This document shows positions 3,299 to 38,489 of a stretch of DNA of 64,000 bases, in pieces (position 1 is the first letter of the stretch; each line of letters starts with the position of its first letter). The DNA is from Microbacterium enclense (GTDB taxonomy: Bacteria; Actinomycetota; Actinomycetes; Actinomycetales; Microbacteriaceae). The stretch spans positions 31,788 to 95,787 of the forward strand of contig NZ_RBZY01000001.1 in the NCBI RefSeq assembly GCF_004022425.1. Direction: 5' to 3'. Below the pieces are notes generated by a model. That model ran no database searches. It saw only the letters and a program-made list of their open reading frames with translations, and was not told where the DNA came from. Both the position numbers and the translations under genes were made by a program.

Positions 3299-3385
3299 GC
3301 TCACTCCTTCTGTTCGCGCCGCCCGGCCCGGGCCCGGCGCCTCGTTCTCCCGCCGCCCCGACGGGTCGGCGCCCCACCACCGTTC

Positions 3386-3438
3386 AGTGTCCAAGACACG
3401 CGGGCCATTCACGACCGCATCCGCGTGTCTTGGACACT
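3386..3438. repeat. Long inverted repeat, family A copy 1
   Basis: Two perfect 18-base arms (3386-3403 and 3421-3438; core GTGTCCAAGACACGCGG) flank a 17-base loop. Nearly the same arms recur at 6383-6433 with another loop of 17 bases. It lies between xylA and xylB. In RNA it would form a long stem. Confidence 0.75.
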
Positions 3439-3452
3439 CAACGCTGAGGAAT

Positions 3453-6313: not shown

Positions 6314-6382
6314 GGGGCGCCTTTCGGGTTCGGGTGCGCGCTCAGACTATCGAGGCGCCGCGCCCGCCGCGGTTGCCGTTCA

Positions 6383-6433
6383 GTGTCCAAGACACGCGGA
6401 TGCCACGGCGTGCGGTCCGCGTGTCTTGGACAC
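6383..6433. repeat. Long inverted repeat, family A copy 2
   Basis: Arms 6383-6399 and 6417-6433 are perfect 17-base complements and share their core with 3386-3438. The 17-base loop contains GGATGCC. It lies downstream of the glutathione peroxidase gene and upstream of the hydrolase, both on the minus strand, so it may terminate the former. Confidence 0.75.
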
Positions 6434-6467
6434 CGAAACCGCGAAGCGGCGTCCACCGCGCCGCGCG

Positions 6468-6997: not shown

Positions 6998-7034
6998 CGA
7001 TGAACGCGATCCGCGGCGTGGATCGCGTTCATCG
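6998..7034. repeat. Inverted repeat, family B (short form)
   Basis: Fifteen-base perfect arms (6998-7012, 7020-7034; core GATGAACGCGATCC) with a 7-base loop lie between the divergent peroxidase and ROK genes. The arm nearly matches the element at 23234-23302 (GATAAACGCGATCC). Being between divergent starts, it cannot simply be a terminator; it could be an operator or a transposable palindrome. Confidence 0.7.
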
Positions 7035-21461: not shown

Positions 21462-21528
21462 GATAAACGCTCTTCGTCCCCAGAAACGCCGCGGCGCAGG
21501 GTGTCTCGCGAGGCACAGCGTTTATCGC
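21462..21528. terminator. Inverted repeat between convergent genes, family B-related
   Basis: CGATAAACGCT (21462-21472) and AGCGTTTATCG (21518-21528) are exact complements separated by 45 bases. The GATAAACG core is shared with 23234-23302. It lies between the LysR stub and the ABC-F gene, which converge. Confidence 0.6.
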
Positions 21529-23233: not shown

Positions 23234-23302
23234 CCGATAAACGCGATCCCTCTCGAAACACGCGGTGCCACGGCGTTTCTCGTAACGGATCGCGTTTATC
23301 GG
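23234..23302. repeat. Long inverted repeat, family B (long form)
   Basis: Perfect 16-base arms (23234-23249, 23287-23302; core GATAAACGCGATCC). Within the 37-base centre, a second small stem (CGAAAC with GTTTC) is visible. It lies between the glycosyltransferase end and the ABC-F start, both minus strand, so it may terminate the glycosyltransferase transcript. Confidence 0.7.
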
Positions 23303-28912: not shown

Positions 28913-29907
28913 TCGGCTGGTACGTCCACCACCACGGCTACGGGCACGTCGCCCGCTTCCTCGCCGTCCACCCGCACCTGCGTCAGCCCGTGCGGGCCTT
29001 CTCGTCGTTGCCGCGGCCCACTGGCCTCGGCGATGCCGTCGAGTGGATCGTGCTGCCGGACGACGCCGACGCGATCGAGCGCGAGGACGGCACGGTGTTC
29101 GATCCGCGCGAGGCGGACCCGACCGTCCGCGGCGCTCTGCACTGGGCACCGCACGACCACCCCGGGCACCGCGCGCGGCTCGCGCGTATCGCCGCCGGGG
29201 CCGCGGATCTTCGCGCGATGGTCGTCGATGTCAGCGCCGAGGTCGTGGCGTTCGCGCGGCTGCTGGGCCTGCGAACCGTCGCGGTGACGCAGCCCGGCGA
29301 GCGGACCGACGAGGCCCACGCGCTCGCCTACGACCTGGCCGACCGCATCCTCGCGCCGTGGGCGCACGGAGCGGTCCCGGCCGGAGCCCTGGCGACTCGG
29401 ACCGACCGGGTCGTGTGGACCGGCGGGATCTCCCGCTACGACGGCCGCGCGGCCGCCTCGCCCGACATCGAGCGGTCGGTGCTCTTCCTCGGTCGCGTGC
29501 TCGACGACGACGTCCGCCGGGATGCCGAGGCGCTCCTGGCCTCGCTCGGATGGCGCACGCGTGCGGTGGGGCATGACGCGGCCTCGCGCATCGACGACCC
29601 GTGGCCGCTGCTGACCTCCCACACCGTCGTCGTCAGCGCGGCGGGGCAGAACAGCATCGCCGACCTCGCCGCCGCGACCGCGCGTGCGGTCGTCGTCGCG
29701 CAGGACCGCCCCTTCGACGAACAGCGCCACACCGCGTGCGCGCTGCACCGCTGGAACCTCGCCCGGGTCGCCCCCGAGGACGTCGACGCCGAAGGGGTCG
29801 CGGCGCTGATCGAGGCCGCGGCCACCGACGTCCCCGACTGGTCGCGGTGGCAGGTGGCCGGCGCCGCCCAGCGCGCCGCCGAGGCCATCGAGGCGATGCT
29901 CCCGTGA
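28909..29907 (+). CDS. MurG/PseG-like glycosyltransferase
   Basis: A 332-residue protein. It begins WYVHHHGYGHVARFLAV, the glycine-rich GHxxR loop of GT28-type transferases, and has SAAGQNSIADLAAA in the C-terminal half, matching the donor-binding loop of MurG-like enzymes. It is coupled to both neighbours by GTGA overlaps. Substrate is unknown; the setting indicates surface-glycan assembly. Confidence 0.75.
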   Translation: MIGWYVHHHGYGHVARFLAVHPHLRQPVRAFSSLPRPTGLGDAVEWIVLPDDADAIEREDGTVFDPREADPTVRGALHWAPHDHPGHRARLARIAAGAADLRAMVVDVSAEVVAFARLLGLRTVAVTQPGERTDEAHALAYDLADRILAPWAHGAVPAGALATRTDRVVWTGGISRYDGRAAASPDIERSVLFLGRVLDDDVRRDAEALLASLGWRTRAVGHDAASRIDDPWPLLTSHTVVVSAAGQNSIADLAAATARAVVVAQDRPFDEQRHTACALHRWNLARVAPEDVDAEGVAALIEAAATDVPDWSRWQVAGAAQRAAEAIEAMLP

Positions 29908-30719
29908 GGATCGCGGTCCTCACCGTCGCCTCGGCCGCCCGCCGCGCGCACCTCGAACGACAGCGCGAGGTGCTCGCCGCCGTGGCTCCGGGCGTCGTGC
30001 GGGTGGAGGTCCTCCTCGACGCGGCGGTGCCGGATGGCATACGGGATGCCGAGGTACACACGCTGCACGTGCCGCCCGGCCCGCACGGACTCCGCGTGGG
30101 CGCGGGACGCAACGCCGCCGCCGCGGCCGCGATCGCGGAGGGTGCCGAGCTGCTGGTGTTCCTCGACGTCGATTGCCTCCCGGGATCCGAGCTCATCGAG
30201 CGGTACACCGACGCCGCAGCCGCCCACCCCGACGCGCTGCTCGCCGGACCCGTCACCTACCTCGCGAGCGTGCAGCGTCCCGGCGTCGCGGACCTGCCGT
30301 TCGTGACCCGCCCGCACCGGGCGCGTCCGGCGCTGCCCGCCGGGGCGACGCGCGTCGCCGAGCCCGGCGAGTACGACCTGTTCTGGTCGCTGTCCTTCGC
30401 CGCCACCCCGGCGACGTGGGAACGACTCGGCGGTTTCCACGACGCGTACGAGGGATACGGGGCCGAGGACACCGACCTCGCGTGGACGGCGCGGACGCGG
30501 GGCGTCCCGCTGGTGTGGACGGGCGGAGCGGATGCCTATCACCAGTGGCATCCGGTGTCCTCGCCGCCGTGGCAGCATCTGGACGACATCCTCCGCAACG
30601 GCGCCGCGTTCCACCGCCGCTGGGGCGTCTGGCCGATGGCGGGGTGGCTCGAGGCGTTCGCCGCCGCCGGCGCGATCGAGCGCCGCGGCGACGCCTGGGT
30701 GCGGGCTCCGCGCGCGTGA
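29904..30719 (+). CDS. Glycosyltransferase family 2
   Basis: A 271-residue GT-A fold enzyme. GRNAAAAAAIAEGAELLVFLDVDC contains (in part) the DxD metal site, and GYGAEDTDLAWTA carries the GxxxEDxD catalytic pattern of family 2/27 galactosyl- and GalNAc-like transferases. It is the last gene of the four-transferase operon. Its TGA is the first three bases of a large inverted repeat. Confidence 0.85.
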   Translation: MRIAVLTVASAARRAHLERQREVLAAVAPGVVRVEVLLDAAVPDGIRDAEVHTLHVPPGPHGLRVGAGRNAAAAAAIAEGAELLVFLDVDCLPGSELIERYTDAAAAHPDALLAGPVTYLASVQRPGVADLPFVTRPHRARPALPAGATRVAEPGEYDLFWSLSFAATPATWERLGGFHDAYEGYGAEDTDLAWTARTRGVPLVWTGGADAYHQWHPVSSPPWQHLDDILRNGAAFHRRWGVWPMAGWLEAFAAAGAIERRGDAWVRAPRA

Positions 30720-30773
30720 GGGGTCGAAAACTGTCGCCACACGTCCGCCGAAGCGACAGTTCCTGACCCCTCA
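30717..30773. terminator. Stop-codon-anchored inverted repeat, family E copy 1
   Basis: Twenty-one-base arms (30717-30737 and 30753-30773) around a 15-base loop. The left arm starts with the stop codon TGA and reads TGAGGGGTC...TGTCGC. Arms pair except for three bases in the middle (arm positions 10-12). It lies between convergent genes and likely ends both transcripts. Confidence 0.75.
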
Positions 30774-30832
30774 CGCGCCGGCTCAGCCGCGCTCACGCGA
30801 AGCGCCGAGCACGGCGGCCGGGATGACGCGTG

Positions 30833-32512
30833 CTATGCGCTCCGGATCCAGGCCGTCGCCTCGCCGGGCAGCGCACCCCCCGCGACCTCGGCGCTCGACA
30901 GCAGCACCTCGCCCGCGGGAAGCTCCACCGGCTCGGTGCCGAAGTTCGTCACGACGATCCAGCCGCCTGGGCGCGCGAAAGCCACCACGTCGGCGCGACC
31001 GAGGTCGAGCCACTCCAGCTCCTCGGCGGTCTGCAGCTCATGCCGCAGGTCGAGGGCGCGGCGGTACAGCGACAGCGTCGACGCGGGGTCGCCGTCCTGG
31101 CGATCGACCGCGTACGCGCCGAACCACTCCGGCTGAGGCAGGTGCGCTCCCGCTCCGAAGCCGAACCCGGCGCCGGAGGCCGTCCACGGCAGGGGTACCC
31201 GGCATCCATCCCGTCCGATGTCCACGCCGGGGCTGCGGAAGAACGTCGGGTCCTGGCGAGCGGCGTCGGGGATGTCGGCGACCTCGTGCAGCCCGAGCTC
31301 TTCGCCCTGGTACAGGTACGCCGAGCCCGGGAGCGCCAGGACGAACAGCGCCGCGGCGCGGGCACGGCGCTCCCCCCGCTCGGCGTCGAGCGTCGGCTCG
31401 GTGCCGCCGGAGAGCAACCACTCGTTGCCGTGCTTGAGCGTCGGGCGACCGTCGGCACCGCGCTCGGCGTCGGGCAGGCCGTAGCGCGTGGCGTGACGGA
31501 CGACGTCGTGGTTCGACAGCACCCACGTCGTGGACGAGCCCGACTCCGCGGCGAGCGCGAGGTTGTCGGTCACGATGCGGCGGAACTGGCCCGCGTCGAA
31601 ATCGGCCTCGAGCAGGTCGAAGTTGAACGACTGCCCCAGGCTCTCGATGCTCGCGTACAGCGGCACGCGCGAGGGGTGCACCCACGCCTCGGCGACGGCG
31701 GTACGGGGCGGGTCGTAGGAGTTGAACACCGCGCGCCATTCGGCGTACACCTCGTGCACGTCGTCACGGTCGAGCAGGGGGTGGGTGCCGTCCACGGGCA
31801 TCGCCGCGAGCTCCGCGGCGGACGGCAGCGGCTCGCTCAGGTCCTTCGTCAGCATGTGCGCGACGTCGATGCGGAAGCCGTCGACTCCACGGTCGCTCCA
31901 GAAGCGCAGGGTCTTCACGAAGTCGGCGCGCACCTCGGGGTTCGCCCAGTTCAGGTCGGGCTGCGAGACGTCGAAGTTGTGAAAGTACCACTGGCCGTCG
32001 GCGACGCGCTCCCACGCGGAGCCGCCAAACACGGACTGCCAGTCCGTCGGCGGCTCGGAGCCGTCGGGCCCGGTGCCCTCGCGGAAGATGTACCGGTCGC
32101 GCTCCGCGGATCCGCGGCCGGCGGCGAGCGCCTCCTGGAACCAGACGTGATCGTTCGAGGTGTGGTTCGGCACGATATCGACGACGACCCGGATGCCATG
32201 CGCGTGCAGCTGAGCGATGAGCGCGTCCATGTCGGCGAGGGTCCCGAGGCGCGGATCCACGTCGCGGTAGTCGGCGACGTCGTACCCTCCGTCGGCGAGC
32301 GCCGAAGGATAGAACGGGCTGAGCCAGATGGCATCCACCCCCAGCTCGGCGAGGTACGCGACCCGCGAGGTGATGCCGGGGATGTCGCCGAGGCCGTCGC
32401 CGTTGCTGTCGGCGAAGCTGCGAGGATACACCTGGTACACCACGGCCTGGCGCCACCAGTCGGGGGCGTCGGAGAGCTCGCGGGCGTGCACGGACGGTGC
32501 GGCGGTGGTCAC
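30833..32512 (-). CDS. GH13 alpha-glucosidase (oligo-1,6-glucosidase type)
   Basis: A 559-residue glycoside hydrolase of family 13 without signal peptide, thus cytoplasmic. WWRQAVVYQVYPRSF at the start, nucleophile Asp216 (GFRIDVAH), acid/base Glu275 (AVAEAWV) and Asp336 (LSNHD) form the catalytic triad; DIVPNHTS is region I. It would cleave imported maltose, isomaltose or sucrose-like glucosides to glucose. GTG 32512 follows GAAAGGA, 29 bases after the permease gene, completing the operon. Confidence 0.92.
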   Translation of the reverse strand: MTTAAPSVHARELSDAPDWWRQAVVYQVYPRSFADSNGDGLGDIPGITSRVAYLAELGVDAIWLSPFYPSALADGGYDVADYRDVDPRLGTLADMDALIAQLHAHGIRVVVDIVPNHTSNDHVWFQEALAAGRGSAERDRYIFREGTGPDGSEPPTDWQSVFGGSAWERVADGQWYFHNFDVSQPDLNWANPEVRADFVKTLRFWSDRGVDGFRIDVAHMLTKDLSEPLPSAAELAAMPVDGTHPLLDRDDVHEVYAEWRAVFNSYDPPRTAVAEAWVHPSRVPLYASIESLGQSFNFDLLEADFDAGQFRRIVTDNLALAAESGSSTTWVLSNHDVVRHATRYGLPDAERGADGRPTLKHGNEWLLSGGTEPTLDAERGERRARAAALFVLALPGSAYLYQGEELGLHEVADIPDAARQDPTFFRSPGVDIGRDGCRVPLPWTASGAGFGFGAGAHLPQPEWFGAYAVDRQDGDPASTLSLYRRALDLRHELQTAEELEWLDLGRADVVAFARPGGWIVVTNFGTEPVELPAGEVLLSSAEVAGGALPGEATAWIRSA

Positions 32513-32541
32513 GAAGGGGTCCTTTCGAGGGGTGGGGTCGG

Positions 32542-33459
32542 TCAGCCCTTGACGGCGCCCTGCGTGACGCCGGCCATCACCCATCGCTGGGTGAAGAGGT
32601 AGGCGACGATCGCGGGGGCCATGGCCATGAGGTACGAGGCGAAGGCGACGTTGTAGTTGTTGCTGAACTGCGTCTGGAACAGGTTCTGCCGCACGGGCAG
32701 GGTCTGCAAGGCCGGATCGCTGATGATGAGCGAGGGCATCATGAAGTCGTTCCACGCGTACAGGAACGCGAAGATGCCGACCGTGGCGCTCATCGGCGCG
32801 AGGAGCGGGAAGATGAGCCGCCAGAAGGTCTGCCACGTCGTCGCGCCGTCGATGCGGGCGCTCTCCTCGAGCTCGAGCGGGATGGAGCGGAGGAACGCCG
32901 TGAACAGCAGCACGCTGAAGCTGAGCTGGAACATCGTGGCGAGGATGATCACGCCGAACGGGTTGTCGAGACCGACCCGGCCGGTCAGCTGGATCTGCGG
33001 CAGCGCGACGACCGGGAACGGGATGAACATCGCCGCGAGCAGATAGAAGAACGAGTACCGGAAGAGCTTGCGGTCCCAGTTGCGGGCGATCGCGTAGGAG
33101 GCGAAGGCCGCGAGCACGATCGTCGCCGCGACCGTTCCGGCGGTGACCAGGAGGGAGATCGCGAGGCCGACGGGGAATCTCGTCAGCGTCCATGCCTGCG
33201 CGAACCCGTCGAAGCTGATGGGCGACGGGAACGAGAACGCGTTGCCGTCGACGACCTGGGCACCGCTCTTGAGGGCCATCGTGACCGTGACGTAGAGCGG
33301 GAGCAGCACGGTGACCGAGCACAGGACGAGGATCGTCGTGGCCGACCAGTTGACGCGTTCTGCGCCGACGCGGCGGGTGCGACGGCGCGCGCGCCGCTGA
33401 TCGGGAAGAGCGAGGTCGGCCTGCTCGAACGCGAGCGCGGGCTGATTCAGGGCGGTCAT
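32542..33459 (-). CDS. Carbohydrate ABC transporter permease (MalG type)
   Basis: A 305-residue inner-membrane permease with six predicted helices. The EAA loop reads LEESARIDGATTWQTFWRLI, the contact for the ATPase. The N-terminal 35 residues are charged and cytoplasmic. It overlaps the upstream permease stop as ATGA. No ATPase gene is in the operon, so a shared MsiK-type ATPase encoded elsewhere is expected. Confidence 0.92.
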   Translation of the reverse strand: MTALNQPALAFEQADLALPDQRRARRRTRRVGAERVNWSATTILVLCSVTVLLPLYVTVTMALKSGAQVVDGNAFSFPSPISFDGFAQAWTLTRFPVGLAISLLVTAGTVAATIVLAAFASYAIARNWDRKLFRYSFFYLLAAMFIPFPVVALPQIQLTGRVGLDNPFGVIILATMFQLSFSVLLFTAFLRSIPLELEESARIDGATTWQTFWRLIFPLLAPMSATVGIFAFLYAWNDFMMPSLIISDPALQTLPVRQNLFQTQFSNNYNVAFASYLMAMAPAIVAYLFTQRWVMAGVTQGAVKG

Positions 33460-34370
33460 GAGAGCGTGTTCCTTCCCCGCGTGAGCGAGAGCTGCAGCAG
33501 CGAGATGGCGACGGCGACGATGAAGAAGAGGGCGGCGTTGGCCATCTGGTAGGCGTAGTCGCCGCCGTTGAAGCCGAAGATGATCGACATCGCGACGCTG
33601 CGGGTGGCTGTGCCGGGGCCGCCGCCGGTGAGACCGACGATGATGTCGTACGCGTTCAGGAATCCCTTGAACCCGAGGATGACGTTGATGAGGACGTAGC
33701 CGGCGACCAGCGGCAGGGTGATGCGCAGGAGCTGCTGCACCTTGCCGGCGCCGTCGAGCCCCGCTGCCTCGTAGACGTCGCCCGGGACCGAGAGGAGCCC
33801 GGCGATGTAGATCAGGAGCGTGCCGGGGATCGCCTGCCACGCCGTCACGATCACGATCGCGAGCCACGCGAGGTCGGGGTTGGCGAGGAGACTCGATTCG
33901 AGCCACGGGATGCCGAGCGCCGCCCCGGCCTGCGGCATCGAGTTGCTGAACAGGAAGTTGAAGACGTAGGCGATGATGATGCCGGAGATCACCATCGGGA
34001 TGACGAAGACCGTGCGCAGCGCCTTCGTGAACCGGATCCGCGCGGTGAGCCCGACGGCCAGCAGGAACGCGGCGACGTTGACGACGATCACCGTCGCGAT
34101 CGAGAAGCCGAACGTGAACAGGTACGACTGCAGGATCGCGGGGTCGCTGAAGATCGCGATGTAGTTCGTCAGTCCGACGAAGTTCCATTCGCCGATGCCG
34201 ATGGAGTCGGTGAAGCTGAAGAAGATGCCGATGAGGCCCGGCACCGTGATCGCCAGCGTGAACAGCACGAGCGTGGGGATCAGGAAGAGGTAGTAGATCG
34301 GCTCGACGCGGCGGGCGCTGCGGCGGGCGGCCGCCTTTCCCCCCGTGACGATGGTCGTGGTGGTGGTCAT
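33456..34370 (-). CDS. Carbohydrate ABC transporter permease (MalF type)
   Basis: A 304-residue permease with six predicted membrane helices and the EAA motif YEAAGLDGAGKVQQLLRI. It pairs with the MalG-type subunit. It is overlapped by four bases on both sides (ATGA with the binding-protein gene and with the next permease), so the three are translated together. Confidence 0.92.
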   Translation of the reverse strand: MTTTTTIVTGGKAAARRSARRVEPIYYLFLIPTLVLFTLAITVPGLIGIFFSFTDSIGIGEWNFVGLTNYIAIFSDPAILQSYLFTFGFSIATVIVVNVAAFLLAVGLTARIRFTKALRTVFVIPMVISGIIIAYVFNFLFSNSMPQAGAALGIPWLESSLLANPDLAWLAIVIVTAWQAIPGTLLIYIAGLLSVPGDVYEAAGLDGAGKVQQLLRITLPLVAGYVLINVILGFKGFLNAYDIIVGLTGGGPGTATRSVAMSIIFGFNGGDYAYQMANAALFFIVAVAISLLQLSLTRGRNTLS

Positions 34371-35686
34371 CGCTGGTCTCCTTCGACGGCGGCGGAGGCA
34401 TCGGCGGTCGAGGTGACAGGCTGCCGGAAGGCGAGCCGCGCCCAGTCCTGGTCCATCGTGCGCAGGGTGCTCTCGGGCGAGGCGCCGAGGATCATCGCCT
34501 GCGCGTAGTTGAAGACCGGGATCGCTTTCGGCACGAGCACGGAGGCCCCCTGGTAGATGCGACCGTCGTCGTAGAACGGGATCATTCCGGCCACGCGCGG
34601 GTCGCTCGGCGCGGGGGCGTCCGTCGTCGGGGCGAAGCCGAGCTGCGACTCGTTGTAGGCCTCGATGATCTCGGGCTGGTAGAGGTATTCGAGGAAGTCG
34701 CGCGCGGCCTCCTGGTGGCGCGACCCCTCGGGGATGATCGCGGCGAGGTCCATGTTGACGCGGACGGCGAGGTCGTCGGGGTCGTCCGTCATCGGCAGGG
34801 GGAAGGTCCCCACCGGCAGGTCGGGCGCGGTCTTGGCGATCTCGCCGAGGGCCCACGGTCCCTGCAGATACATCGCGGCCTGGCCCTGCGCGAACGCGAG
34901 GTTGCCGTCGCCGTACGCCCGGCTGTCGGCATCCGGATTCGTGTAGGTCGTCGCCAGCTGGGTCATGCGGTCCATCGGCACGGCGAAGTCCTTCTGGAAC
35001 GACACGGTCGAATCGGACCCGACCCGATCGCCTTCGGCGGCGAGCGAGTCGAAGAAGTCGATGACGTCCACCGAGCCGCCCACGGCGTAGTCGTACCAGC
35101 CCTGGCCGACGGTCCAGTCGTCCTTGAAGGTGCCGTAGAACGGGGTGACACCGTTCGCCGTGAGGGTCTCGGCCGTCTGGATCAGCTCGTCCCAGGTCGT
35201 CGGCACCTCGAGGCCGAGGTCGTCGAAGATCTGCTGGTTGTAGATGACCGACGACGCCATCACCGAATACGGCAGAGCGCTCGTGCGCCCGGCGCAGACG
35301 CCGTACTGGTCCATGAGCGGCTGCAGGTCCTCGCGGACCGTTGCGGCCGCGGCGGTGCCCGAGAGGTCGGTGAGCGCGCACCGCTGCACGAACCGGGCCA
35401 CCTCGTAGTTGTAGTTGGCGAGCATGATGTCGGGCGGGTTGCCGCGCACGAAGCTCGCCGAGACGACGTCCACGCCCGAGCTGTCCATTTCGACACGCAC
35501 CCGATCCTGCGAGGCGTTGTAGTCCGCGACCACCTGGGTCATGAACGCGAGCGCTTCGCGTTTGCTGAAGGTGAATCGGATGGTCTCGCGACCGTCGGCG
35601 GAGCATCCGGCGAGCATCGCCACCCCCAGCGCCGTCACCGCCAGCGCCGCGACACCCCGTCGCGCGGTTGTCGTCTTCGTCGACAC
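34367..35686 (-). CDS. Sugar-binding lipoprotein of ABC importer (MalE type)
   Basis: A 439-residue extracellular binding protein. A lipoprotein signal ends in LAGC with Cys28 as lipid anchor. Family 1 solute-binding pattern follows: VIYNQQIFDDLGLEVPTTWDEL and AMYLQGPWALGEI. GTG 35686 has GAGGAGG just upstream. Operon partners include a GH13 glucosidase, so the ligand is probably an alpha-glucoside such as maltose or isomaltose. It diverges from a ROK gene across an AT-rich control region. Confidence 0.9.
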   Translation of the reverse strand: MSTKTTTARRGVAALAVTALGVAMLAGCSADGRETIRFTFSKREALAFMTQVVADYNASQDRVRVEMDSSGVDVVSASFVRGNPPDIMLANYNYEVARFVQRCALTDLSGTAAAATVREDLQPLMDQYGVCAGRTSALPYSVMASSVIYNQQIFDDLGLEVPTTWDELIQTAETLTANGVTPFYGTFKDDWTVGQGWYDYAVGGSVDVIDFFDSLAAEGDRVGSDSTVSFQKDFAVPMDRMTQLATTYTNPDADSRAYGDGNLAFAQGQAAMYLQGPWALGEIAKTAPDLPVGTFPLPMTDDPDDLAVRVNMDLAAIIPEGSRHQEAARDFLEYLYQPEIIEAYNESQLGFAPTTDAPAPSDPRVAGMIPFYDDGRIYQGASVLVPKAIPVFNYAQAMILGASPESTLRTMDQDWARLAFRQPVTSTADASAAVEGDQR

Positions 35687-35703
35687 GTTTCCTCCTCGCA
35701 TCC

Positions 35704-35752
35704 TTGCGATTTTGAATCGGTTATTAAATCTACTCGCCAAATTAATGCGGTG
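35704..35752. promoter_or_regulatory. AT-rich divergent control region with ROK-like operator
   Basis: About 50 bases of clearly lower GC lie between the binding-protein and ROK genes. ATTAA (35723-35727) and TTAAT (35742-35746) form an inverted repeat with a 14-base spacer. GATTTTGAATC precedes it. This is the most likely operator for the ROK repressor and the promoter of the alpha-glucoside operon. Confidence 0.5.
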
Positions 35753-35792
35753 ACGGCAGTATTGCAGGAGACACGAAGGGGGTCAAGATCCG

Positions 35793-37028
35793 ATGACGGA
35801 TGCCACACCCTCGGTGCCCTCGCTCCGCCGCCACAGCCTCGACGCCGTGCTCGCCTACGCGTGGGACGCCGAGGCGTTCACCGCGAGCGACGTGATGGCC
35901 GCGGTCGCCCTGACCCGCTCCACGACGATCGACGTGCTGGATGAGCTCGTCGTCCGGGGGCTGCTGATCGAGATGCCGAACGCCCGGGCCGTGGGCGAGT
36001 ACTCGAAGGGGCGCCCCGCGCGTCGCTTCGCGCTCCGCGCCGATGCCGGGCTCGTCGTCGGGGTGGACGCGGGGCGAGGACACATCACGGCGACGGTCGC
36101 CGACCTGCGCGGCGTGCCCGTCGCGACCTCGCGCCTGTCGATCGACCCCGAACGCGACTCCCCCGAACGCCGTCGCCGCGCCGCCGAGAAGGTCGTCGAC
36201 GCCACGCTCACCCGGGCTCGCGCCACCCGCGACGACCTCGTCGCCGTGTGCGTGGGGGTGCCCGCACCGGTCGATCGCTCGGGCCGCTCCCCGATCCACC
36301 ACGACGGCTTCTGGCAGCGCATGAACCCCGACTTCGTCGACACCTTCGCCCCCTGGGCGCCGGTGGTCCGAGTCGAGAACGACGCGTCGCTCGCCGCCGT
36401 CGCCGAGCACGCGGAGGGGGCCGCCGTCGGCTACGACGACTTCGTGGCCCTGCTCGCGGGCGAGCGCTTCGGCGCGGGACTCTGGCTCGACGGGCGGCTC
36501 CTGCGCGGAGCGCACGGCGGAGCGGGCGAGACCGTCGCGTTCGACCGGGTCGAGGGCGTGGGCAGCGCCTACGGACTCGCACCGCGCTGCGTCGACGCCG
36601 CACGCGCGGCCATCGCCGCGGAGACGCTCCCCGGCAGCACGCTGGCGGAGGTGCCCCCGGACGACCTGGATGCCAAGCGCGTGCTCGACCTCGCCGCTTC
36701 CGGCGACCCGGGAGCGCTGGCCGTCGCGGCCGAGGTCGGCGGGCAGCTCGCGATCGTGACGGGGCTCCTCGGCAGCCTCTTCGATGTGCGCCGGGTCGTG
36801 ATCTCGGGCGCGATCGCCGCCGGCGCGGGGCCGATCATCGCCGCCGCGGCCGAGGCGCTCCCCGCCGCGCTGCACCTGCCGCCGCCCGAGATCGTTGCAT
36901 CCCCGCTCGGCGCGGACATCGTCTCGATCGGCGCGGTCGCCGCGGCCCTCGAATCGGCGCGCGCCCGTGCGATCGACCTCGAGGCGTTCCGCCTCCCCGC
37001 CGAGCGCGCCCGGGCATCCGGCGCGTGA
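35793..37028 (+). CDS. ROK-family transcriptional regulator
   Basis: A 411-residue ROK repressor. The winged helix is at about residues 15-65 (FTASDVMAAVALTRSTTIDV), followed by the kinase-like domain with GVDAGRGHITATV and VCVGVPAPVDRSG. The usual zinc cysteine cluster is not evident. It is divergent from the alpha-glucoside importer operon and lies before a second GH13 gene, so it likely senses glucose or a glucoside and represses both. Its stop codon begins an inverted repeat. Confidence 0.88.
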   Translation: MTDATPSVPSLRRHSLDAVLAYAWDAEAFTASDVMAAVALTRSTTIDVLDELVVRGLLIEMPNARAVGEYSKGRPARRFALRADAGLVVGVDAGRGHITATVADLRGVPVATSRLSIDPERDSPERRRRAAEKVVDATLTRARATRDDLVAVCVGVPAPVDRSGRSPIHHDGFWQRMNPDFVDTFAPWAPVVRVENDASLAAVAEHAEGAAVGYDDFVALLAGERFGAGLWLDGRLLRGAHGGAGETVAFDRVEGVGSAYGLAPRCVDAARAAIAAETLPGSTLAEVPPDDLDAKRVLDLAASGDPGALAVAAEVGGQLAIVTGLLGSLFDVRRVVISGAIAAGAGPIIAAAAEALPAALHLPPPEIVASPLGADIVSIGAVAAALESARARAIDLEAFRLPAERARASGA

Positions 37029-37082
37029 GGGGTCAGAATTCGTCGCTTCGGGCCCGCCGAGGCGACGAATTCCGACACCTCA
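37026..37082. terminator. Stop-codon-anchored inverted repeat, family E copy 2
   Basis: Arms 37026-37046 and 37062-37082 (21 bases each, 15-base loop) begin with the TGA of the ROK gene and read TGAGGGGTC...CGTCGC. Two mismatches lie at arm positions 6 and 10. The same geometry as 30717-30773 but with changed, mostly still complementary arms. Confidence 0.72.
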
Positions 37083-37132
37083 CGCACACGGGCTCGGGGC
37101 GCAACCCGTCGGTCCGACGGAGCCTCGGCGGA

Positions 37133-37138
37133 TAGCCT
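37133..37138 (+). promoter_or_regulatory. -10 TAGCCT for leaderless GH13 transcript
   Basis: TAGCCT fits TANNNT and ends six bases before ATG 37145. The inverted repeat just upstream would end the ROK transcript, so this gene probably has its own start. Confidence 0.5.
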
Positions 37139-37144
37139 CGGCCC

Positions 37145-38434
37145 ATGCCGAACTGGCCCGAACACGCCCTCTGGTGGCACCTGTACCCCCTGGGGTTCGT
37201 CGGTGCACCGATCCGCGACGGCGTCGATCCCGACGCTGAACCCGCCCACCGACTCGACCGCATCGACGCCTGGCTCGATCACGTCATCGAGCTCGGCCTG
37301 AACGGGCTGCTGTTGGGGCCGATCTTCGCGTCCGAGACCCACGGGTACGACACCGTCGATCACTTCCGCGTCGATCCGCGGCTCGGCGACGACGCCGACG
37401 TCGACCGGCTGCTGGCAGCGTCCCGGGAGCGCGGCATCCGCGTCCTCTTCGACGGCGTGTTCAATCACGTGGGACGCGGGCATCCGGCCTTCCGGGCCGT
37501 GCGCGACGGCGGTGACGCGACCCTCTTCCGGGGCGCGTGGGTCGACGGGCGGTTCGAGCCCGAGGTGTTCGAGGGGCACGGCGCCCTGGTCGCGCTCGAC
37601 CACTCCTCGGATGCGACCGTCGAGCTCGTCGTCGACGTCATGTGTCACTGGCTCGCGCGCGGCATCGACGGCTGGAGACTGGATGCCGCGTACGCGGTGC
37701 CGCCGGAGTTCTGGGCGCGGGTGCTCCCGCGCGTGCGCGAACGCTTCCCCGAGTCGTGGTTCCTGGGCGAGGTCATCCACGGCGACGGTCCCGCGATCGT
37801 GAACGCGTCCACGATGGACGCCCTCACGCAGTACGAGCTGTGGCAGGGGATCTGGCATGGCATCTCGGACGGCAACTTCTTCGAGCTCAGCCACGCGATC
37901 GAGCGTCACGGCGAGCTGCTCGCGACCTACGTCCCCCAGACCTTCGTCGGAAACCACGACGTGACGCGCATCGCGTCGGCGGTAGGACCCGACCTCGTTC
38001 CGCACGCCCTCGCCGTGCTGTTCACCGTGGGCGGCACGCCGTCGGTCTACGCCGGCGACGAGTTCGGCTGGACCGCGGTGAAGGAGGAGCGCGAGGGCGG
38101 CGACGACGCGGTGCGGCCCGCGTTCCCCGCGACGCCGGCGGACATCGCGGACGCCGACGAACGCATTCTCGCCGCGCATCGCGCGCTCATCGCCCTGCGC
38201 CGGCGGCATCCCTGGCTCTGGCGCGCCCGCACCGACGTCGTCGAGGTCACGAACTCGACCCTCGTGCTGCGCACGGGCGTGGATGCCGAGGCGGTGATCG
38301 TCGCGCTGAACCTCGCCGACTCCCCCGCGTCGCTGCCCGCCGCCGACGCCCGGGCCCTGTCCGCCGGCGACGCGACGCTCCGGGATGCCCGGGCCGAACT
38401 CCCGCCCCGCGGCTGGGGGGTCTTCGAGGCCTGA
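37145..38434 (+). CDS. GH13 alpha-amylase-family enzyme (cyclomaltodextrinase-like)
   Basis: A 429-residue cytoplasmic GH13 hydrolase, shorter than most because it lacks N-terminal starch-binding domains. Region I is FDGVFNHVG. Catalytic residues are nucleophile Asp180 (GWRLDAAYA), acid/base Glu209 (FLGEVIHG) and Asp272 (VGNHD). The short beta-alpha barrel plus small C-terminal domain resembles cyclomaltodextrinase/neopullulanase relatives. It probably cuts longer imported malto-oligosaccharides. Confidence 0.88.
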   Translation: MPNWPEHALWWHLYPLGFVGAPIRDGVDPDAEPAHRLDRIDAWLDHVIELGLNGLLLGPIFASETHGYDTVDHFRVDPRLGDDADVDRLLAASRERGIRVLFDGVFNHVGRGHPAFRAVRDGGDATLFRGAWVDGRFEPEVFEGHGALVALDHSSDATVELVVDVMCHWLARGIDGWRLDAAYAVPPEFWARVLPRVRERFPESWFLGEVIHGDGPAIVNASTMDALTQYELWQGIWHGISDGNFFELSHAIERHGELLATYVPQTFVGNHDVTRIASAVGPDLVPHALAVLFTVGGTPSVYAGDEFGWTAVKEEREGGDDAVRPAFPATPADIADADERILAAHRALIALRRRHPWLWRARTDVVEVTNSTLVLRTGVDAEAVIVALNLADSPASLPAADARALSAGDATLRDARAELPPRGWGVFEA

Positions 38435-38489
38435 GTCGCCGGGATTCGTCGCCGCCCGACGCCGGCGAGCGTCGCGATCCGGCGACTCA
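38432..38489. terminator. Stop-codon-anchored inverted repeat, family E copy 3
   Basis: Arms 38432-38452 and 38469-38489 with a 16-base loop begin with the TGA of the GH13 gene. The first eleven bases of the arm (TGAGTCGCCGG) pair perfectly, then mismatches occur. It lies between convergent GH13 and LacI genes. Confidence 0.65.

Follow-up and report, generated by a model that had tools for sequence, protein, structure and literature searches.

The stretch of DNA analysed here (the window) comprises 64,000 nucleotides of the Microbacterium enclense genome. It contains three hairpins of a family that we designate F1, whose arms are of two types, A and B. Element 1 (type A; 30717-30773, or 63 nt at 30714-30776 when its GCG and CGC ends are included) and element 3 (type B; 38432-38489) lie in convergent gaps, and element 2 (type A; 37026-37082) lies in a tandem gap; none of the hairpins described here is assigned to a strand. 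The three elements are 57, 57, and 58 nt long and share a layout of two 21-nt arms around loops of 15, 15, and 16 nt. In each case, the opening TGA is the stop codon of a plus-strand gene, with gene ends taken from our own hexamer gene caller. The gene ending on element 1 (29904-30719) has a weak glycosyltransferase match far under the family cut-off, the gene ending on element 2 (35793-37028) belongs to the ROK-type regulator/kinase family, and the gene ending on element 3 (37145-38434) belongs to the alpha-amylase family. All three elements close with TCA, followed by CGC. The original prediction had given these coordinates, the TGA start, the 21-nt arms, the 15- to 16-nt loops, and the trailing CGC, and each of these was confirmed for all three elements. 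Its placement of arm mismatches around positions 10-12 was only roughly right: element 1 is mismatched at positions 10-12, but element 2 is mismatched at positions 6 and 10, and element 3 at positions 12-15 and 18.

Two other hairpin families, F2 and F3, are likewise dispersed behind genes in the window and the rest of the genome. F2 hairpins, a related kind outside F1, are found at 3381-3443 (63 nt, containing ..AGTGTCCAAGACACGCGG..) and 6379-6437, and additional ones lie behind genes at L071:8316-8368 and L059:1759-1812. Two F3 hairpins (ATAAACGC..GCGTTTAT), each 63 nt, are found at 21463-21525 (G000:C1:53250-53312, where G000 is the genome to which the window belongs) and 23237-23299 (G000:C1:55024-55086). 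The F3 plan consists of ATAAACGC ends and a RAAACGC inner box. Across 320,744 bases of G000 sequence, we counted 58 strong inverted repeats, none inside called genes and three in divergent gaps. The window also holds a perfect 15-nt inverted repeat (CGATGAACGCGATCC) at 6998-7034 between two divergent genes, which is perhaps an operator. No Rfam family matched the 64-kb window at its gathering score.

We searched G000 (3.41 Mb in 149 contigs) for further copies of F1. The pattern TGAGGGGTN{30,60}ACCCCTCA, whose outer part can also be written TGAGGGGT..ACCCCTCA, occurs at 12 places and its reversed control at none; therefore, the window hairpins are not chance. A covariance model built from 13 type A copies (R1) found 34 places at E values up to 1, with 150 of 4,315 first-look candidates scored. 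A second model built from 14 copies so as to include element 3 (R2) found the same 34 places, element 3, and one weak place. We count 35 F1 places in total, i.e., the 34 plus element 3, leaving aside a weak match on contig C63, where the hairpin is shorter but has identical ends, as well as the half copies found where contigs stop. At G000:C63:38495-38540 (L205), the ends are related to those of F1 and the inside differs (GCGTGAGGCGCC..GGCGCCTCACGC). Seven of the 35 places fall on contig C59 (59,582 bases), a far higher density than in the rest of the genome. The ends of contigs C34 and C136 carry halves of at least one further copy, and contigs C34, C83, C107, and C136 of G000, as well as contig C38 of the related genome G009, start or stop in an F1 copy or a few bases from one. 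The hairpins thus probably interrupt the assembly of these draft genomes, so that F1 copies are probably undercounted.

The family has a well-defined architecture. Copies are 57-58 nt long, or 63-64 nt when counted from GCG to CGC, and 146 of 148 distinct copies, drawn from fetched loci and selected on GTCGC/GCGAC, are 57 or 58 nt. Each arm has a conserved outer box (GCGTGAG..), a covarying spacer, and a conserved inner box (GTCGC), and the loop is variable. Both types have GCGTGAG..CTCACGC ends and a GTCGC..GCGAC inner box; between these parts they diverge, the type A arm being TGAGGGGTCA-nnnnn-TGTCGC and the type B arm TGAGTCGCCAGGATTTGTCGC. Element ends read TGAG or CGAG in 283 of 296 cases, with CGAG in place of TGAG in 53 of the 296. 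R1 matched 10 of 38 genomes including our own, all Microbacterium, and R2 matched 31 of 119 Microbacterium genomes, again including our own. Eleven of these 31 have at least 35 matches; one copy was usually matched on both strands, no more than 42 candidates were scored, and the counts are to be read as "at least." F1 copies lie in the Microbacterium testaceum group. Exact searches of viral contigs with two F1 arm patterns and a search of plasmids with one type A copy gave no matches, and carriage of F1 by phages or plasmids is thus unsupported. The literature that we searched, mostly other than subscription papers, contained no description of such elements in Microbacterium.

We then asked where F1 copies lie relative to genes, using gene ends from the simple hexamer caller throughout. 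Ten of the 35 G000 copies supply a stop codon. In terms of gene ends, 47 point at the 35 copies: 10 fall exactly on the TGA, none elsewhere inside an element, 27 stop 4-20 nt before it, and 10 lie farther away. Of 201 gene ends around the 148-copy set, 38 fall on the element's TGA and 1 at another point within the element; 99 stop 4-20 nt before it, 60 are more distant, and 3 lie beyond it. These neighbour counts exclude six edge elements and five "coding" elements, the latter being three copies in a helicase gene described below and those at L215 and L271, which probably reflect over-long gene calls. A genome-wide search for further copies starting at stop codons had been set beforehand as the test that could refute the original prediction, and it did find such copies. 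Exact anchoring is nevertheless not the rule, and the three window elements merely happen to be all anchored. Indeed, the G009 counterparts of elements 1 and 3 are stop-anchored, and that of element 2 (type A) sits 13 nt behind the stop.

The original prediction had also suggested that the elements, being fused to the stop codon, are linked to translation termination. In addition to the gene ends that use the TGA or stop just before it, such a device could draw on lowered translation in E. coli with REPs less than 16 nt from the stop, as cited in PMC12306157. The counts speak against it, since most copies are unanchored and lie mostly at least 4 nt behind a native stop, 53 of 296 element ends carry CGAG rather than TGAG, and a copy inside the helicase gene is read through in frame. 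We consider a termination device highly improbable. Stop-codon fusion is instead a by-product of the TGA carried at the palindrome end. Each F1 end has a TGA behind CGCG, and where a gene meets the element with no gap and a fitting frame, this TGA serves as its stop codon. The usual CGCG before the TGA also explains the gap in stop-to-element distances, as it bars stop ends from -2 to +3. Genes in the other two frames would run into the element, and their scarcity suggests selection against tails rather than a role for the stop codon.

The gap preferences bring in another reading, in which F1 copies are bidirectional 3'-end hairpins, i.e., U-less terminators or exonuclease stops kept via the RNA stem on both sides. 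Of the 33 G000 copies with both neighbours, convergent and tandem gaps contain 15 each and divergent gaps 3, compared with 6.5 convergent, 17.7 tandem, and 8.8 divergent copies expected from intergenic length (p 0.0005). Furthermore, 53 of 57 tandem copies in the 148-copy set are closer to the upstream stop, the stems are strong, and U-lacking structured 3' ends occur in Streptomyces clavuligerus (PMC8269248). On the other side, 8 of the 148 copies lie in divergent gaps, the stem sequence is conserved beyond what a fold alone would ask for, and the 35 G000 copies have no T-run behind the stem, where CGC is followed by mixed GC-rich sequence. We regard this reading as unlikely, although precise mRNA 3' ends at F1 copies are possible.

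Covariation in the stems, which the original prediction had taken to imply selection for a fold, was examined at a single site and within each arm type. Behind the hrpA gene, an alignment of 12 sequences including that of G000 (A3) has 33 paired double-change cells compared with 11.8 +/- 2.6 in shuffled alignments, and 0 of 500 shuffles reached this value. Nine remnants ("rem") were omitted from A3, several of which are without part of the inner box; L137, which duplicates a remnant, and L127, which is too short, were dropped as well, and the A3 row of L109 begins six bases late. By the same measure, 0 of 500 shuffles reached the value for the type A copies of G000. Covariation of the type B copies alone did not rise above shuffles (110 of 500; 110 to 251 of 500 on four measures and 169 on a fifth). 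The stem is thus kept at the hrpA site and among the type A copies but not demonstrably among the type B copies by themselves.

If an RNA fold were under selection, the sense strand of tandem copies should carry more G-U than A-C mismatches. This excess is missing in F1, with 43 GT to 39 AC (stricter cut, all loci). Other hairpins in tandem gaps at the same loci gave 44 GT to 22 AC (p 0.005), in a set that also counts the same hairpin from relatives and a few hairpins that resemble F1 but have no GTCGC; those in convergent gaps showed no excess (47:41), as expected. The direct contrast between F1 and the other hairpins has a p value of 0.094 and is therefore a lean rather than proof. A first look had given 64 GT to 35 AC for all tandem-gap hairpins and 34:22 (p 0.07) for F1, but this hint of RNA-level selection through G-U tolerance failed to repeat in 80 newly fetched regions (26:29), and all loci at a loose cut gave 51:47. 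Selection on RNA by this measure was given up for F1 and retained for the other hairpins; the missing asymmetry counts against 3'-end hairpins. Arm-to-arm copying during replication is a known process at imperfect palindromes, and such copying could keep the arms matched without selection.

Next, we compared the same genomic sites across species. G009 and G000 are mostly 83-96% identical in aligned stretches, and 13 of 16 G009 regions, chosen for their G009 copies, are orthologous to copy-bearing G000 regions. Old insertions and a retained function would explain such conserved positions equally well. In 11 ortholog pairs with type A in both species, arm identity is 95% at positions 1-9, 66% at positions 10-16, and 100% at positions 17-21. 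The middle region shows 10 double changes that keep pairing versus 14 single changes that unpair one species. The loop is 57% identical in these pairs, and the near flanks, ungapped, are 38-55% identical. At four sites, including that of window element 3, G000 has type B and G009 has type A. Two gaps hold F1 in one species and an F3 hairpin in the other, once in each direction (L053/L081; L076:4894 versus L072:9155-9235), and this substitution of one hairpin for another in the same gap favors both a dispersed repeat swapped in place and 3'-end hairpins. We saw gain of an element alone at a single gap; the empty allele there contains CGCGTGAGGG, so the apparent gain might be a loss.

Two genes illustrate the range of outcomes at one site. 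Behind hrpA, we found a recognisable F1 copy in 11 named genomes, type A in two and type B in nine, and the hrpA tree requires at least three changes between A and B (a minimum number). The copy lies 20-30 nt behind the stop in L106 and L109, and other genomes have decayed pieces starting TGA(G)TCGC or no element. In L153, L156, L159, L160, L161, and L169, all relatives of M. oxydans / hydrocarbonoxydans, the hrpA stop is located within or next to another kind of dispersed repeat, GTTGAGCGAGCGAAGCGAGACGAAACGC or pieces of this sequence, which seems likewise to lend a TGA. Behind a sulfite-oxidase-like gene, the same TGA belongs to a type B copy in G000 and to a type A copy in G009, the copies of L178, L180, L181, and L184 follow the native stop at a distance of about 10-25 nt, and L175 has a different stop-anchored hairpin (TGAGACGCG..); the other rows read contain no F1 copy. 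Depending on the species, a single site can therefore be occupied by F1 of either arm type, by a hairpin of another family, or by a remnant, or it can be empty.

F1 also occurs inside a protein-coding sequence. Of 18 M. testaceum group genomes, eight carry a copy in frame in a DEAD-box/DUF3516 helicase gene, of type A in G016, G098, and G087 and of type B in G072, G039, G006, G042, and G107. The copies occupy a linker of variable length in a reading frame that avoids the TGA. G000, G009, G020, G084, G007, G118, G059, G086, G069, and G077 have a five-codon linker and no copy. Helicase ORFs with a copy encode 867-873 aa (longer in G107) and those without encode 847 aa; the difference between typical ORFs (868 versus 847 aa) is 21 codons, or 63 nt. 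The left linker varies too, so the exact border of the copy is not fixed, and no target duplication is visible at this site, where the left flanks of filled and empty alleles differ. These copies were located by GTCGC/GCGAC, so the inner box is present by selection, and 12-20 of the 21 arm positions are paired. This is the only gene in which we found in-frame F1 copies. A strong terminator at this position would cut the gene unless translation masks it, and the in-frame copies argue to that extent against 3'-end hairpins. Outside the group, some genomes have long helicase linkers without a clear F1 copy. The linker of the G062 helicase (L304), also outside the group, is long, contains GTCGC..GCGAC, and has 12 of 21 arm pairs; it is perhaps a decayed F1 copy or chance.

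The two-box architecture raises the further alternative that F1 copies are immobile sites of a DNA-binding protein, e.g., a roadblock or chromosome-organising factor that reads both boxes at fixed spacing. Such a protein would suit the near-constant distance between the conserved boxes and the freedom of the spacer and loop, as well as the lack of RNA-type asymmetry and the similar 63-nt plan of F3. Yet closely related species differ in which sites are present and in the arm type found there, one site lies within a coding sequence, and the spacer arms covary though they would not be read. We therefore judge this alternative to be quite improbable.

We also looked for gene stretches between copies and for a mover. 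At three loci, two copies flank genes in one species and a single copy is present in the other: six genes (6.5 kb) at the window element 1 locus in G009, two genes (1.4 kb) at the hrpA locus in G009, and four genes (5.7 kb) at the L065 locus in G000. Other length differences adjoin a copy at one end (L054:9864-11956, L078:2468-4073, and L089:4166-4975), and one touches no copy (L054:4385-7772); the compared regions were picked for carrying elements. Simple recombination between repeats could explain the three two-copy loci. The RAYT family (PF01797, Y1 transposase) has no match in G000 and one among 119 genus genomes (G056), with the control matched in 5 of 14; G056 has no F1 match with R2. 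The absence of PF01797 from G000 leaves RAYT-driven REPs unsupported. Type A arms in G000 (15+17) and G009 (32+32) all lie in hairpins or at contig ends and do not mark the ends of an autonomous transposon in these genomes. Integron cassettes are likewise unsupported, as no integrase exceeded the TIGR02249 cut-off in any of 118 genomes; partial TIGR02249 matches occurred everywhere including the controls, as for other tyrosine recombinases.

Taken together, the family, its geometry and positions, the type swaps, the in-frame copies, the covariation, the lack of a GT over AC excess, and the gene stretches between copies lead us to favor, with moderate confidence, the reading that F1 is a dispersed, REP/RPE-like palindrome of the M. 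testaceum group, non-autonomous, with symmetry at the DNA level and a TGA that genes have recruited as a stop. Several results run against it: none of the mover searches above found a candidate, no target duplication is visible at the helicase site with its differing left flanks, gain of an element alone was seen at a single gap, the preference of copies for convergent gaps and for the upstream stop resembles that of a terminator, the GT/AC contrast with other hairpins is just a lean, and the positions shared by G000 and G009 would equally suit a retained function. As a non-autonomous REP/RPE-like element, F1 would be mobile, and it may be copied or moved by an enzyme that recognises both DNA boxes, or one copy may convert another. 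The symmetry would be kept at the DNA level, either because two half-sites are recognised or because one arm corrects the other. Copies may survive mostly just behind stops because a hairpin there would be harmless and may help to end or protect mRNAs. Some copies may thus end or protect transcripts as a secondary use; we rank this role second because of the sequence conservation, the swaps, the in-gene copies, and the lack of RNA-type asymmetry.

A broader version of the REP/RPE-like reading would include the other families. F3 occurs in 18 of 118 Microbacterium genomes including G000, at 1-39 copies each, and 17 of the 18 also match R2. Its length is 63 nt in all 76 listed of 304 counted places, where the pattern allowed 51-81 nt. 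The same 63 nt is found for type A (GCG to CGC) and for F2 at 3381-3443 (one F2 copy), an equality that may reflect chance or one shared machinery. Tentatively, and with rather low confidence, we propose that F1, F2, and F3 could be subfamilies of one unrecognised class of mobile palindromes of 63-64 bp (about six helical turns), with an outer and an inner recognition box at fixed spacing in each arm, that would be moved and exchanged in place by an enzyme of the M. testaceum group, bound excisable gene stretches, and donate stops or in-frame peptides to host genes.

One short repeat thus links stop codons, an in-frame protein insert, and differences in gene stretches. F1 gives many natural replicas in which the arms have changed at the same genomic site, and these allow one to ask whether near-perfect hairpins owe their persistence to selection on RNA, to a protein that binds or recombines DNA, or to copying from one arm to the other. 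They also serve as a warning, in that covariation and a position behind stop codons do not alone prove a terminator.

F1 has features in common with several known systems. Integron attC sites are palindromes behind genes with outer and inner boxes, a spacer, and a loop. F1 resembles them in lying behind genes, in its two boxes with spacer and loop, and in the gene stretches bounded by copies, but its arms are near-symmetric and no integron integrase exceeded the cut-off. With MITEs and with terminator-like repeats, of which SPRITE of Streptococcus pneumoniae is an example, F1 shares short repeats that have inverted ends and no gene of their own, and hairpins at gene ends; unlike for MITEs, a search of G000 and G009 found no autonomous element ending in type A arms. 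Canonical intrinsic terminators have a T-run after the stem, which F1 is without. The U-less (I-shaped) terminators of GC-rich bacteria share with F1 a strong GC-rich stem, the missing U-tract, and the location at gene ends, whereas in F1 the sequence and size of the stem are conserved from one dispersed copy to the next, and copies occur inside a gene as well. REPs associated with RAYTs are extragenic palindromes behind genes, many near a stop codon (PMC12306157), and are 20-40 bp long with a GTAG tag (PMC3733652). F1 is similar in lying behind genes with many copies near the stop but differs in its greater length (57-58 nt), in having neither a GTAG nor a CGTC end tag, and in the lack of PF01797 in G000. 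PMC10969869 and PMC3733652 describe RPEs and CGTC REPs as dispersed palindromes of several families with in-frame copies inside genes, the CGTC REPs having no dedicated transposase. CGTC-tagged REPs end in their tag, whereas F1 has two boxes per arm over 63-64 nt. F1 is like the Rickettsia palindromic elements (RPEs) in being a dispersed palindrome with in-frame copies in a protein gene; RPEs are about 150 bp long, often intragenic, and found in Rickettsia, whereas F1 is a 63-64 nt palindrome of an actinobacterium that has two boxes per arm and lies mostly behind genes.
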